DNA of 21,775 nucleotides, taken from positions 1 through 21,775 of IMG/VR virus record IMGVR_UViG_3300044797_000062; one strand, 5' to 3'. This document shows positions 570 through 21,637 of the stretch, one piece after another (position 1 is the first letter of the stretch; every line of letters starts with the position of its first letter). The notes beneath the pieces are model-generated. The model worked only from the letters and a program-made list of their open reading frames with translations. It had not been told where the DNA came from and made no database searches. Position numbers and translations under genes: made by a program. This DNA comes from a virus.

Positions 570-772
570 TTTTGTGAACTCGATGTGCCCGGGTGCTTGC
601 ATGTGCCCGGGCATGTCAGTAGCGTCCTACTCCAAGCGGATAAGGTCACGGCCCCCGCTGACGATGCGAAAGCGCATAGCGTAAGCCGGACTTCTCCGGC
701 TAGAAGCGCCCCCCTCACGGGACAAGGCCTTCGAGAACGAAGTGATTACTTCCTTTTCGGAGCCCTTGTTTC
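570..772 (+). promoter_or_regulatory. Structured intergenic region with serial hairpins before the capsid gene
   Basis: This is the longest gene-free stretch in the plus-strand virion block. It contains a run of perfect or near-perfect inverted repeats: 582-593 with 606-617 (12 bp including two G-U pairs, around TGCCCGGG/CCCGGGCA); 618-622 with 627-631 (AGTAG/CTACT); 645-651 with 655-662 (GTCACGG/CCG-c-TGAC); 664-668 with 673-677 (ATGCG/CGCAT); 684-690 with 695-701 (AGCCGGA, loop CTTC, TCCGGCT); 729-733 with 738-742 (CTTCG, loop AGAA, CGAAG). A competing stem pairs 739-743 with 748-752 (GAAGT/ACTTC). A Shine-Dalgarno GGAG lies at 759-762, ten bases before the capsid ATG. No T-run follows any stem, so a simple intrinsic terminator is unlikely. 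It may be an mRNA leader, processing site or small RNA; no known family is assigned. Confidence 0.45.
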
Positions 773-1690
773 ATGTCAACCAATATCGTTACGTTCTACG
801 TCCAGCAGTTCGCCAAGCAGCTGAACGAACTCGTGCAACAGAAGACTTCCCGTCTTCGCAAGTGGTGCACGGAGGACAAATACGTCGGTCAAGCCGCATC
901 CCCGGTCGAGCAGGTGGGACCGATCGCGATGCAGCCCGTTACGCAGCGCTATGGCCCCATGCAGCGGGTCGATGCGCCGACCAATCGGCGCTGGGTGTAT
1001 CCGTCGGACTTCGACTTGCCGCAGTTGTTCGACAACTTCGACAAGCTGCGCTTGCAGATCGACCCCAAGGGCAAGTTCACGAACAACGCGAAGAACGCCG
1101 CGAATCGTCAGTATGACGACCTGATCATTGCCGCACTGTCCGGTACCGCTCAGACGGGCGTGGCGGGTGCGACTTCGGTGGTGCTGCCTGCGGGCAACGT
1201 CATCTCTGTCCAGCAGGGCGCGACCGCTCCGACCGGTCTCACCGTCGCGAAACTTCGCCAGGCGAAGATGCTCGCGGAGCAAAACGAAGCCTATTCCGAT
1301 GAGGAGGGTGATCCCGGCGACTCGAATTCGGGTCTCGTTGTCGTGGCGGGCGCGCGCCAGCTGGATAACCTGATGGCAGAAGCACAGGTTGTGTCTCGCG
1401 ACTTCAACGACCAGCCGGTGCTCGAGGAAGGGCGCGTGAAGCGCTTTCTCGGCATCGACTTCGTGCGCTCAGAGCGCTTGCTCACCGGCACGGACGATCA
1501 GTCGGGCACTTCCGTCAAGGTGCACCTCTGGCAGCGCGAGGGCATGCATTTGGGCATCTGGAACGATATTTCCACGAACATCAGCCAGCGGCATGACCTG
1601 CAGTCAGAGCCGTGGCAGTGCTACGTATTCATGACGGCAGGCGCGACTCGCTTGGAAGAGAACCGCGTCTACCAGATCTGGGCTCGGTAA
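773..1690 (+). CDS. Major capsid protein
   Basis: This 305-residue protein resembles the HK97-fold major capsid proteins of short-tailed phages (the group annotated as 'phage capsid protein', Phage_capsid_2 type). The N-terminal segment (STNIVTFYVQQFAKQLNELVQQKTSRL) is followed by PMQRVDAPTNRRWVYPSDFD and DNFDKLRLQIDPKGKF, both typical of this group. A later segment reads LGIDFVRSERLL, and the C-terminal part has GATRLEENRVYQIWA, the usual final strand region. It forms the shell of the head. ATG at 773 has GGAG at 759-762. It follows the scaffold-like gene and opens the virion operon. Family recognition is from sequence resemblance, not a search. Confidence 0.88.
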   Translation: MSTNIVTFYVQQFAKQLNELVQQKTSRLRKWCTEDKYVGQAASPVEQVGPIAMQPVTQRYGPMQRVDAPTNRRWVYPSDFDLPQLFDNFDKLRLQIDPKGKFTNNAKNAANRQYDDLIIAALSGTAQTGVAGATSVVLPAGNVISVQQGATAPTGLTVAKLRQAKMLAEQNEAYSDEEGDPGDSNSGLVVVAGARQLDNLMAEAQVVSRDFNDQPVLEEGRVKRFLGIDFVRSERLLTGTDDQSGTSVKVHLWQREGMHLGIWNDISTNISQRHDLQSEPWQCYVFMTAGATRLEENRVYQIWAR

Positions 1691-2960: not shown

Positions 2961-3221
2961 GTGTCGGGTGATCTTGGCGTATTGACGAGCGGTGGCTCAC
3001 CGACGTTCACCAACGTAGCGGCGAGCGGGACTGTGACCTCTGCCACGGAAGTCTTGACAGCGGCAGCGCCCACGGTGAGCTCGGGTCAGGTCGGGTTCGG
3101 TGCGACTACGGCGGCGAGCGCCACCGCAGGTTCCGGCGGCGCATTGCCTGCCACCGTACAGGCGTATCTCGTGATCAACGTCGCGGGGACAAGCTTCAAG
3201 GTTCCGTACTTCGCGGTTTGA
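2961..3221 (+). CDS. Small structural protein with C-terminal strand motif common in phage tail genes
   Basis: An 86-residue protein with a GTG start directly after the TAA of the previous gene (TAAGTG). The N-terminal half repeats Ser/Thr/Ala/Gly patterns (GGSPTFTNVAASGTVTSATE). The C-terminal half, VSSGQVGFGATTAASATAG followed by QAYLVINVAGTSFKVPYFAV, resembles a conserved ending found on many small phage virion or tail-associated proteins and fibre tips. It is probably all-beta. The exact role is unknown; a head or tail attachment protein fits the location. No alternative in-frame ATG exists, which supports the GTG. Confidence 0.65.
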   Translation: MSGDLGVLTSGGSPTFTNVAASGTVTSATEVLTAAAPTVSSGQVGFGATTAASATAGSGGALPATVQAYLVINVAGTSFKVPYFAV

Positions 3222-3872
3222 TTGTGCCCGCTGATTTCCCTAGCTTCGGGAACCGTGAGTTCACAGATCGACATCGCGAATTTGGCTTGTACGATTCTCG
3301 GCCAACCGGGCATCACGAGTCTTTTTCCGCCTGATCCTTCGGACCGCGCGCAGCAGATTTCCTCCGTCTACGACACGATCCGTCGCGGGATGCTCGAGGG
3401 GCCCGGCATCTGGCGATTCTCGGTCAAGCGGACATCTTTGGCCGCCTCGACCACCGTTCCGGCCTCGGGTCCGTTCACTACGTGCTACGCGCTGCCGTCA
3501 GACTATATCCGCGTCCTGCAGGTCGGCGATATGTATGCGGGGCTGGACTTGTCCGACTATCGTCAGGGGCCGACGGATGCCGACTATTCGATAGAGGGGA
3601 ATTTGCTCCTCTGCGACTACGGCTCGCCTGTCTCGCTTCAGTACATCGCCGATATCACGGATACGACGTTTTTCAACGCGAACTTCTGCATCGCCTTTGC
3701 GGGGCAGCTGGCGTGGACGACGTGCGAGCGCATCACGGGGTCCGATGCCAAACAGGCGACCGCCGAGAAGCGCAAGGATAAGGCAATGGCGGATGCGCTG
3801 GCCTCCGGTGCGCTGGTCAATCCGCCCGGTTATCCGGGGGACAGCGAATGGATTCTTGCGAGAATGCAGTAG
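3222..3872 (+). CDS. Tail tubular protein A-like (T7 gp11 type, head-to-tail adaptor)
   Basis: This 216-residue protein matches the tail tubular A/adaptor family by its opening IDIANLACTILGQPGITSLF, which fits the 'N-x-A-L-x-x-L-G' start, then SDRAQQISSVYDTIRRGMLEG, IWRFSVKRTSL and the 'CYALPSDYIRVLQV' segment. T7 gp11 is about 196 residues. In that family the protein forms the dodecameric ring joining portal to nozzle. The frame begins with TTG directly after the previous TGA; a GTG at 3255 (VSSQIDIANL) is an equally possible start, and neither has a strong Shine-Dalgarno. The next gene's ATG follows the TAG immediately. The nozzle-like partner downstream supports the call. Confidence 0.8.
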   Translation: MCPLISLASGTVSSQIDIANLACTILGQPGITSLFPPDPSDRAQQISSVYDTIRRGMLEGPGIWRFSVKRTSLAASTTVPASGPFTTCYALPSDYIRVLQVGDMYAGLDLSDYRQGPTDADYSIEGNLLLCDYGSPVSLQYIADITDTTFFNANFCIAFAGQLAWTTCERITGSDAKQATAEKRKDKAMADALASGALVNPPGYPGDSEWILARMQ

Positions 3873-16861: not shown

Positions 16862-17322
16862 CCAGCCTAGAGCGCACCGCGTGTGAGATCGTCGTGGGAT
16901 TGATGATGCTGTTCGGCTTCGTCCTCTACGAGCGCCACGAAGGGGCAAAGCGCTGCGAGAATGCGGACAAGACCGCCGTTGCGGCCCAGGTTGCGCACAA
17001 CGAAGTCATCCAAAAGAGCGATGCCCAAACCATCAACCAAGAGGCGATCGACTATGCAAAAGCTATTGCCGCCACTCCTGATCCTGTCCCTGTGCTTACC
17101 TGCGTGCGTTACTACACGCCCGCAGCTCTGCCCAAAGCCACCACCGCCCAACCCGCAGGCCATGCAGCCCCCGAACTACCAACAGCAGCTGGACCAAGCT
17201 TTGACCCCGCCCCAGCCGTTGCAAAAATAGGGCAGGCGGCGGATGCGCAGATTGCCGAGCTTCAGGACTACGTCAGGCGCGTTTGCCTCGCCGAACCAGC
17301 AGCAAGCCACCCAGCAAAGTAA
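16858..17322 (+). CDS. Rz: Rz-like inner-membrane spanin (i-spanin)
   Basis: A 154-residue protein with an N-terminal anchor at ~10-25 (EIVVGLMMLFGFVLYE) and a charged periplasmic segment (RHEGAKRCENADKTAVAAQ). A Pro/Ala-rich part follows, and the C-terminal helix IGQAADAQIAELQDYVRRVC is a coiled coil of the kind seen in prophage Rz proteins. i-Spanins join o-spanins across the periplasm to fuse inner and outer membranes in the last step of lysis. Two features support it: its place after the endolysin and small membrane genes, and the nested lipoprotein at 17054. The last 50 bases overlap the convergent gene on the other strand. Confidence 0.8.
   Translation: MTSLERTACEIVVGLMMLFGFVLYERHEGAKRCENADKTAVAAQVAHNEVIQKSDAQTINQEAIDYAKAIAATPDPVPVLTCVRYYTPAALPKATTAQPAGHAAPELPTAAGPSFDPAPAVAKIGQAADAQIAELQDYVRRVCLAEPAASHPAK
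17054..17230 (+). CDS. Rz1: Rz1-like outer-membrane lipoprotein (o-spanin), nested in Rz
   Basis: Entirely inside Rz in the +1 frame, as in lambda. ATG 17054 has AAGAGG at 17039-17044. The 58-residue product begins with a lipoprotein signal peptide (MQKLLPPLLILSLCLPAC) with lipobox LPAC, lipidation at Cys18. The mature part of 41 residues is proline-rich (12 prolines, including KPPPPNPQAMQPPNY), like lambda Rz1. After lipidation it would sit on the inner face of the outer membrane and bind the C-terminus of Rz. A longer frame reading from 16961 has no lipoprotein start and is not preferred. Confidence 0.85.
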   Translation: MQKLLPPLLILSLCLPACVTTRPQLCPKPPPPNPQAMQPPNYQQQLDQALTPPQPLQK

Positions 17323-17746
17323 GCGCTGCGAGCGCCGTCCCCGAATCCATCTCCGGTGCCGCTGCCGGCGGATCGACGACTGATCCCTTGCACGCCCCCA
17401 AGTAATCGTTACCCCCGCTCGGCGTATCGTTCCCGCACGACCATCCGTTATTCCCATCCTGCGTATAGAACGCCCCCACGATTTGCGTACCCGATAGCGT
17501 GTATTGCAGCGTCCATATTTCCGATCCCGCCGCCTGAGCTGAGGAAGCCCCCTCGAGATTAATCAGCACCCCACCGCTAGAGCCCGTATTGGCCTCAGTC
17601 AGCATCCCGCCGCCGATCCCGTCTGTGACTGCTACGGTAGGCGATATCGTTCCATCGAACGAGTAAGAGCCCATCGTTAAGTCGAAATCAAACGTCTGTG
17701 CACTCGCCACCCCAGAGAATAGGGCTAGCGCTATCATTGTTTTCAT
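17273..17746 (-). CDS. Secreted protein with PEP-CTERM-like sorting tail
   Basis: A 157-residue protein with a cleavable signal peptide (MKTMIALALFSGVASA, cleavage before Gln17), a beta-rich Gly/Ser/Thr body with two cysteine regions (GWSCGNDTPSGGNDYLGACKG) and a C-terminal tripartite tail from ~131: PEMDSGTALAALTLLGGLLL followed by VRRGKRA. Short Pro-Glu motif, membrane helix and Arg/Lys tail are the layout of PEP-CTERM sorting signals, which exosortase recognises in some Gram-negative bacteria. The ATG has a strong Shine-Dalgarno (AGAGGTGAT). It is the last gene of the minus-strand train, 41 bases after its neighbour, and its 3' end overlaps Rz by 50 bases. It may be a lysogenic-conversion or moron gene; its binding target is unknown. 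Confidence 0.7.
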   Translation of the reverse strand: MKTMIALALFSGVASAQTFDFDLTMGSYSFDGTISPTVAVTDGIGGGMLTEANTGSSGGVLINLEGASSAQAAGSEIWTLQYTLSGTQIVGAFYTQDGNNGWSCGNDTPSGGNDYLGACKGSVVDPPAAAPEMDSGTALAALTLLGGLLLVRRGKRA

Positions 17747-20648: not shown

Positions 20649-20773
20649 GACTTCGGCTCGTTTTGCGCAGGAAAGCATCCGCGAACGGTCCAGTACAGCC
20701 AGAGCCAATGATCCAGCCTGCCGGCTCCTCTACCGCGCCATGCGTTCCAATAAATAGCGGCACGATAAATCAT
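20645..20773 (-). CDS. Aromatic-rich 42-residue protein
   Basis: ATG 20773 overlaps the methyltransferase TGA (ATGA), and its own TGA overlaps the next ATG (ATGA), so it is linked on both sides. The product is MIYRAAIYWNAWRGRGAGRL followed by DHWLWLYWTVRG and a short tail QNEPKS. Eight Trp/Tyr residues cluster in a stretch that could lie on a membrane surface. It has no family I recognise. Confidence 0.5.
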   Translation of the reverse strand: MIYRAAIYWNAWRGRGAGRLDHWLWLYWTVRGCFPAQNEPKS

Positions 20774-21450
20774 GCGAACAGCCTCCCTTGTGCATACGCG
20801 GCTTTGATGCGTGTACATGCGATATCGAAGTATTTCTCTTCGATCTCGATCCCAATGAATTTTCGTCCTAAATTGGCGCAGGCTATGCCCGTGGTACCCG
20901 ATCCCATGAACGGATCAAGAATCGTAGCCGCATCGTGTTTGTCGATTAGCGCGCACAGAAGGGAAACCGGCTTTTGATGTGGATGCGACCGACTTTCGCG
21001 GTCGCCAAGCCCCTTGAATTGAGTTTCCCAGCTAACCTGAACATGGCCGCGCAGCACGCCCTCATCGCGTTTGCCGCTCCAATTCTGACCTCGAATATAG
21101 ATCAGTTCGAAGCTGGGCTTCCAAGGGAAGGCAAGATCCCCCATTCCGAACGCTGGCCCCTTATCAAAAACAAGACACCCTCGCGTATTTGCAATCGGTG
21201 GCGTTTTCCAAGTGCCGAATGAGGCGACCTCGGAGAATGGCTGCAGCATTTCGTCACGCAGCGTCGTATCGCTGTCGCCCGCAATGACAGTATTCTGCCA
21301 AGACGCCCCATACGATGATTTGTGAGCGATCCCATATGGTGGGTCAGTTATCACCGCGTCAACCCTCGGCAGCGTCGGCAGGATCTCCCGGCAGTCTCCG
21401 AGATAGAGCGTGGCATCGCCAATTTGTACGGGATCAATGGACATCGCCAT
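20770..21450 (-). CDS. DNA methyltransferase, DPPY type (N6-adenine or N4-cytosine)
   Basis: A 226-residue enzyme when started at ATG 21450, which has GGAGG eight bases upstream; ATG 21480 would overlap the upstream gene by 47 bases with no such site. The catalytic motif DPPYG is at residues 36-40. A short target-recognition region follows, then a HPHQKPVSLL segment and the AdoMet-binding motif DPFMGSGTTG (179-188), then 'GRKFIGIEIEEKYFDIA'. Catalytic motif before AdoMet motif is beta-class order. It is short for the family. It probably methylates phage DNA and so may resist host restriction; no endonuclease partner is seen. The target sequence cannot be predicted. Confidence 0.85.
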   Translation of the reverse strand: MAMSIDPVQIGDATLYLGDCREILPTLPRVDAVITDPPYGIAHKSSYGASWQNTVIAGDSDTTLRDEMLQPFSEVASFGTWKTPPIANTRGCLVFDKGPAFGMGDLAFPWKPSFELIYIRGQNWSGKRDEGVLRGHVQVSWETQFKGLGDRESRSHPHQKPVSLLCALIDKHDAATILDPFMGSGTTGIACANLGRKFIGIEIEEKYFDIACTRIKAAYAQGRLFA

Positions 21451-21637
21451 GCTCGCTGCCTCCGCGTTGTGGATCGTCATGCACGTAGATAACGCCCTTG
21501 GAATCGTGATCCTTACGGGGAAGGCACACTAAACATCCAATGTCGGCAATATGGCCACCAAGGATAGTTCCGTCATCAGTACACGGAACAATGTGCCGAT
21601 TGCCATCGCGATCCTCAATTGTTCCCCAATGACTCAC
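21434..21637 (-). CDS. Small hypothetical protein (67 aa), upstream of the methyltransferase
   Basis: GTG 21637 is preferred: AAGGAA lies six bases upstream and the GTG overlaps a TGA (GTGA). ATG 21724 would lie inside the methyltransferase remnant. The product opens SHWGTIEDRDGNRHIVPCTD and has one CxxC-like pair (GCLVCLP), an acidic middle and 'VIYVHDDPQRGG'. Short proteins of this type occur in phage accessory regions. Its 3' end overlaps the methyltransferase start by 17 bases. Confidence 0.6.
   Translation of the reverse strand: MSHWGTIEDRDGNRHIVPCTDDGTILGGHIADIGCLVCLPRKDHDSKGVIYVHDDPQRGGSEHGDVH

Follow-up and report, generated by a model that had tools for sequence, protein, structure and literature searches.

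The capsid locus and its relatives

What is the structured interval in front of the major capsid protein (MCP) gene of this phage, and does it act on capsid synthesis? The DNA analysed here is the whole IMG/VR virus record IMGVR_UViG_3300044797_000062 (21,775 bases; hereafter the window, to which all coordinates refer). An initial annotation of the window described a run of consecutive hairpins at 582–752, between a scaffold-like gene and the capsid gene, and proposed an RNA element that tunes capsid expression or, alternatively, a phage small RNA. The annotated relatives of the MCP belong to HTVC010P-type Pelagibacter phages and other small podoviruses. HTVC010P-type pelagiphages rank with the most abundant marine viruses, and their capsid proteins are distant relatives of the MCP encoded in the window; a nucleotide search found no match between the window and annotated phages. 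In total, 32 IMG/VR loci with close MCP relatives were collected and many more were added by wider searches, all of these relatives being metagenomic or deposited sequences. The 28 close leaders compared below share kinship, and counts among them are therefore not independent events.

Two other genes of the window, both on the minus strand, were noted. The first (17273–17746), an ORF of 157 aa, has a signal-like N-terminus and carries at its C-terminus a tail similar to a PEP-CTERM sorting signal (PEMDSG...LLGGLLLVRRGKRA), which is odd in a phage; it showed no Pfam or NCBIfam match. The second (20770–21480) encodes an N6_N4 DNA methylase (PF01555, E 5.7e-22). No tRNA or tmRNA was found in the window by ARAGORN.

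Anatomy of the leader RNA

Folding confirmed the hairpins at 582–616, 664–677, 684–701 and 712–721 and the 729–762/739–752 set. The segment 560–790 folds at -97.1 kcal/mol, compared with a mean of -70.2 kcal/mol for dinucleotide-shuffled sequences (z -6.25; none of 200 shuffles as good), in energies that leave out tertiary contacts. The structure is thus real, but the hairpins do not form a single run as first described: the strongest of them, 582–616, lies upstream of the likely transcription start and outside the conserved RNA. When this palindrome is left out, 634–781 folds at z -4.54. The initial list was also incomplete, as the conserved hairpin A and the extended form of hairpin B were overlooked because both hold internal loops.

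The conserved RNA spans 636–769, probably forms the leader of the MCP mRNA, and consists of hairpin A, hairpin 1, hairpin 2, hairpin B, and a hairpin containing the Shine-Dalgarno (SD) sequence (Table 1). The same parts were recognized in 28 leaders by a parse anchored on sequence motifs only, and a long helix comparable to the SD hairpin is present in all 28 close relatives. In hairpin A, an internal loop of AUAA lies opposite C654, and the fold given in Table 1 is exactly the minimum-energy fold (MFE) of 634–662. In extended hairpin B, the internal loop ACAA lies opposite C711 and the apical loop is UCAC. Hairpins A and B, each folded alone, both form this 4x1 internal loop. Stem positions 3–5 of hairpin 1 are paired in 28 of 28 leaders, with three to four pair types each (best of two registers).

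Table 1. Features of the capsid locus in the window (x, pairing between the segments on either side)
Feature	Position	Strand	Composition and basis
15-bp palindrome	582–616	.	Loop is the -35 hexamer TTGCAT; fold of -29.1 kcal/mol
Promoter-like element	597–625	+	TTGCAT (597–602)-N17-TAGCGT (620–625), spacer starting with GTGCCCG; conserved layout
Hairpin A	636–658	+	GCGG (636–639) x CCGC (655–658), GGU (644–646) x GCC (651–653); covariation, MFE
Twin internal loop (AYNN), copy 1	640–643	+	In hairpin A
Junction UGAC	659–662	+	Nearly invariant; UGA invariant in 28/28
Hairpin 1	664–677	+	Fully variable stem (here AUGCG/CGCAU), invariant AAAG loop
Hairpin 2	684–701	+	Perfect 7-bp stem; compensatory changes in all six pairs counted
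Extended hairpin B (ON fold)	703–732	+	GAAG (703–706) x CUUC (729–732), GCC (708–710) x GGC (726–728), CCC (712–714) x GGG (719–721); RNAalifold on the 28 leaders
Twin internal loop, copy 2	722–725	+	In hairpin B; in the OFF fold, 722–727 x 764–769 toward the start codon
SD hairpin (OFF fold)	729–762	+	CUUCGAGAA (729–737) x UUUUCGGAG (754–762), apical stem 739–743 x 748–752
SD of the capsid gene	759–762	+	GGAG, 10 nt before the ATG at 773
MCP gene	773–1690	+	305 aa; PHROG 3437 major head protein, E 1.7e-62

A promoter-like element precedes the RNA

The layout TTG-N20-TAGNNT, with GTGCC after the -35 hexamer and a variable -10 hexamer, is found in 26 of the 28 leaders and is located 8–14 nt (23 nt in one leader) before hairpin A. 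The element fails a strict sigma-70 consensus scan, and it is its conservation that suggests a promoter here, with a predicted RNA start at approximately 631–636. The conserved RNA begins at about the position where transcription should begin. Because this conserved sequence lies just upstream, the RNA is probably the 5' leader of a separate capsid transcript, which makes the initially proposed tuning of capsid against scaffold dosage within one polycistronic message less likely.

The palindrome at 582–616 was rejected as a part of the RNA, since it overlaps the -35 box and, as judged by eye, a similar palindrome occurs only in L002 and L006 among 27 aligned relatives. In these two leaders and in the window, the palindrome loop is exactly the -35 hexamer and the right arm is the conserved GTGCCCG. 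In L002, a T run comes after the palindrome, which may therefore also serve to terminate transcription of the upstream genes.

The putative promoter class TTGNNTGTGCC-N12-TAGNNT has two copies in the window, one at 597–625 and the other at 3218–3246, the latter overlapping the tail tubular protein gene where it begins at 3222. Matches to this pattern were found in 8 of 11 related records, and a reversed control pattern gave none. Two more distant members of the close clade (L028 and L029) keep the leader RNA and lack the TTG..GTGCC motif, so that the RNA is conserved more widely than the promoter class.

Covariation supports the folded leader

Compensatory changes are strong in the 28 close relatives. 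The 30-pair model was scored on a MAFFT alignment that was not fitted to structure (A3), in which 88.5% of the cells in the model are paired. Changes on both sides of a pair were seen in 19 pairs and 114 cells (14.3 and 38.6, respectively, in shuffles), and a control in which the pairing partners were slid reached at most 13 pairs and 44 cells. The A3 count of hairpin 1 is lowered by its pairing in two registers. RNAalifold independently recovered the outer stem of hairpin A, hairpin 2, and the GAAG x CUUC extension of hairpin B. In a second alignment (A4), comprising 39 mostly divergent leaders and fitted to the model, 272 cells changed on both sides, against 77.

Hairpin A varies among G-C, A-U and C-G and between C-G and A-U and also covaries in its inner stem, and the pair 705–730 of hairpin B is changed from A-U to G-C in five sequences. 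In divergent phages, GAAG/CUUC is swapped for GGAU/AUCC and other pairs. A helix CCGCU x AGCG that would close a three-way junction was rejected, as it shows no compensatory change, lies at shuffle level in all five measures, and is broken in several members; one of its strands is shared with hairpin A, which does covary.

No Rfam family matches the RNA. At the gathering threshold of Rfam release 15 none was found in the window, and a permissive search of 540–800 returned only chance-level matches (E 1.1 and worse); none was found in 14 annotated relatives, nor in 10 divergent loci at E up to 0.5. The lack of any Rfam ribozyme match in these same sets includes the hammerhead and other described self-cleaving ribozymes; visual inspection shows CUGANGA-like and AAAG pieces, but hairpin 1 is not followed by the GAAA of the hammerhead core.

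Occurrence in front of capsid genes

A covariance model (R1) built solely from the 28 close leaders was run on loci recruited by the capsid gene and yielded 50 matches beyond the window, in divergent leaders (E up to 1, E-values being rough because calibration was short). All 50 are on the coding strand and directly before the MCP gene, and no match was found elsewhere in approximately 640 kb searched on both strands. Among 14 near-complete phage records, 13 contain one strong copy; one of these has an extra match at E 0.9, which is not credible. A further model (R2) gave 41 matches in 99 loci, all just before the MCP gene, with a marginal match (E 0.62) in Pelagibacter phage Lederberg.

A DNA pattern searched over all of IMG/VR identified 27 contigs, of which 26 were already-known MCP contigs; in the remaining one (L055), an MCP start lies just downstream. 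When a looser pattern was applied to bacterial genomes, only 1 of 21 matches clearly passed the model, and this match is likewise located before an MCP gene. It lies in a 197-kb contig of the Bacteriovoracaceae MAG UBA6200 (L259, 1–480), which carries both the leader RNA and the capsid gene. Either an integrated relative or a binning artefact could account for this copy, which would bear on host range and lysogeny in the group.

Two competing folds share one strand

The initial annotation had pointed to a mutually exclusive pair of hairpins beside the capsid ribosome-binding site. The competition is conserved, but the local hairpin 729–742 is not, as judged by inspection. What is conserved is a competition for CUUC (729–732), which can pair either with the SD-mimicking GAAG (703–706) or with the real SD (759–762). 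The leader therefore contains conserved, mutually exclusive SD-sequestering and anti-sequestering helices, the arrangement looked for in a translational riboswitch. The three strands co-vary: they read GAAG/CUUC/GGAG in 14 members, whereas in five (L002, L012, L013, L021, and L024) the first is GAGG, the second contains CUC, and the third is GAGG or GAGAGG. L021 and L024 are sisters on the MCP tree and the other three lie apart, suggesting that this GAGG-type change is likely to have arisen at least four times.

In transcripts truncated after CUUCG, the mean probability of extended hairpin B is 0.75 (>0.5 in 20 of 27 members), whereas in full-length leaders it is 0.05 and that of the SD helix is 0.94 (>0.5 in 27/27). 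In the window, accordingly, 634–734 folds with extended hairpin B and 634–781 with the SD hairpin. When each fold was forced, OFF was more stable than ON in 26 of 27 members, by a mean of 5.4 kcal/mol. For the full leader, the ON fold lies above the energy minimum, and several of the forced ON folds leave much of the SD region paired. Hairpin A and extended hairpin B are weakly predicted in some members (L008, L010, L017, and L028). The SD hairpin was found in most of 29 divergent leaders (mean z -2.0 against mononucleotide shuffles).

Twin internal loops change together

Positions 3 and 4 of the two AYNN loops are identical between the copies in 26 of 27 relatives (AC, AA, CC, or UA); in a permutation test, the mean was 10.9 agreements and the maximum was 20 in 100,000 permutations. 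Parsimony on the MCP tree assigns 10 and 11 changes to the two copies, respectively, which indicates that the loops co-changed many times, barring an exchange of leaders among lineages. No third strand covarying with the loops was detected by mutual information. Inspection of A4 shows AA at the end of most loops in divergent phages, and both loops appear to be ACAC in L155, which lies outside the close clade.

The one discordant member, L005, alone has a UUG start, and its second copy is ACAA, complementary to CCUUGUC at the start codon; this single case fits a compensatory change. In the full fold, the probability that copy 2 is paired toward the start region exceeds 0.4 in 14 of 27 members. 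Start-codon pairing was rejected as a full explanation of the twin loops, because only these 14 members pair and AA-type members mismatch GUG.

A probable two-state switch of capsid translation

Comparison of the leaders establishes, at the sequence level, a conserved and covarying RNA located exclusively before the MCP gene, in which two pairings of CUUC (729–732) exclude each other. Since one of the two competing shapes hides the capsid ribosome-binding site, this RNA probably sets the timing of synthesis of the most abundant phage protein. The initial idea of an RNA element that tunes capsid translation is thus well supported by a conserved and covarying structure, by the location of the SD within a conserved hairpin, and by its presence as a single copy at the MCP gene only. 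As a whole, the earlier interpretation held in part, and its account of the hairpins understated what exists. We consider it likely that 636–769 is the 5' leader of the capsid mRNA and acts as a two-state translational on/off element.

Such an element could work as follows. Transcription would start at approximately 631–636, and hairpins A, 1, and 2 and extended hairpin B would form first on the nascent RNA. Extended hairpin B would hold CUUC off the SD, giving what is presumably the ON state, with the upstream domain folded. The OFF state would follow once the rest of the leader has been made, when the more stable SD hairpin could form and copy 2 could pair toward the start codon. A factor bound to the folded upstream domain would stabilize hairpin B and keep capsid translation on, and without this factor the leader would relax to OFF. 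The surfaces that such a factor would recognize are the twin AYNN/C internal loops, the AAAG loop, and the UGAC junction. That the two loops are identical and change together suggests a protein that is dimeric or binds twice, or else a contact between the loops, and the strict association with the MCP gene is consistent with a putative autogenous protein-binding leader. The switch may instead be kinetic or constitutive. A more far-reaching proposal, which we regard as possible and hold only tentatively, is that the leader represents a new class of genetic switch RNA in phages with HTVC010P-like capsid genes; its two identical internal loops, as a paired recognition site, would sense either a host signal or a protein of phage assembly and thereby time capsid protein synthesis.

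The main rival is a leader that times itself without any ligand, being translated while extended hairpin B holds and then passing irreversibly into the SD-sequestered fold, so that capsid synthesis would follow new transcription only. The order of synthesis and the folding energies agree with this, extended hairpin B being favoured in truncated RNA and the SD hairpin in all 27 full leaders, but the invariant AAAG loop, the UGAC junction, and the co-changing twin loops are left unexplained and resemble a binding surface; we therefore judge it unlikely, though worth keeping in mind. Alternatively, the element could conceivably act in trans as a phage small RNA, but its end is the capsid SD, and a scan of 400–1000 revealed no terminator-like site, that is, no G+C-rich stem with an immediate U tract as in an intrinsic terminator or attenuator.

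A static stabilizer, protecting the 5' end of an abundant capsid mRNA against RNases without any switching, appears improbable: the fold is very stable and starts only a few bases from the predicted 5' end, but neither a pair of competing folds that covary jointly nor identical internal loops would be needed for such a function. HK022 put RNA, which forms two stem-loops near the 5' end of a phage transcript, acts in antitermination without SD control. An element of this kind at the 5' end of the late transcript, modifying RNA polymerase for readthrough of the late operon, is slightly less probable still. The single copy just after a conserved promoter-like element and at the head of the late structural genes would suit it, and the capsid leader shares with put the presence of stem-loop RNA near the 5' end of a phage transcript. 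However, the capsid leader is always joined to the capsid SD with its own conserved hairpin and competing mimic, and antitermination has no need of an SD. A site acting at the DNA level, for instance in packaging or recombination, is very hard to sustain, as direct repeats and palindromes do occur near the head genes but the compensatory changes preserve RNA pairing including G-U, on one strand only, and the structure is joined to the SD. For a G+C-rich region such as this one, structure arising by chance was refuted by the shuffle comparison (z -6.25, 0/200), the covariation, and the blind recovery of position.

Relation to known regulatory RNAs

The MS2 and Qbeta coat protein operator is a single RNA hairpin at the translation start. 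The capsid leader resembles it in placing RNA structure there, with possible feedback by an abundant structural protein, but belongs to a dsDNA phage with an unrelated capsid protein and has several hairpins and an SD switch. A simple RNA thermometer would share the SD helix, but the conserved upstream domain and the SD mimic would be unexpected in it. With translation-controlling riboswitches, the leader shares the 5' position, a conserved upstream domain, and an expression platform of mutually exclusive SD-sequestering and anti-sequestering helices; it differs in matching no Rfam class, in preceding a virion structural gene instead of a metabolic one, and in its twin co-changing internal loops. 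Autogenous ribosomal-protein leaders and the T4 gp32 and gp43 operators (PMC3014915) likewise place structured RNA at the translation start of a gene for an abundant or regulated protein; a protein ligand of the capsid leader, MCP or another, is plausible but putative. In its mode of action the leader may resemble either translational riboswitches or autogenous protein leaders, with membership in neither claimed.

According to a review of T4, no riboswitch of that phage has been functionally characterized (PMC3014915). Structured regulatory RNAs are present in other phages of aquatic bacteria: a glutamine riboswitch controls tmRNA in marine phage Melnitz (PMC9004378), and cyanophages carry manA and wcaG motifs (PMC2864571). 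Phage riboswitches in the literature searched sit at metabolic or tmRNA genes (PMC9004378, PMC2864571), so the genes differ from that studied here, and the scanned sequences gave no Rfam match to these families. In the openly licensed papers searched, we found neither a description of such a capsid leader nor a late-gene regulator of HTVC010P-type pelagiphages.

The family is not in Rfam and could be added from the present alignments. Co-change of two identical loops some ten times would represent a rare example of concerted evolution within an RNA recognition site and would point to an unknown partner. If the proposed function is true, a single-copy RNA switch at the capsid gene, conserved across a wide range of capsid relatives, would offer a testable handle on the timing of head assembly in small phages.
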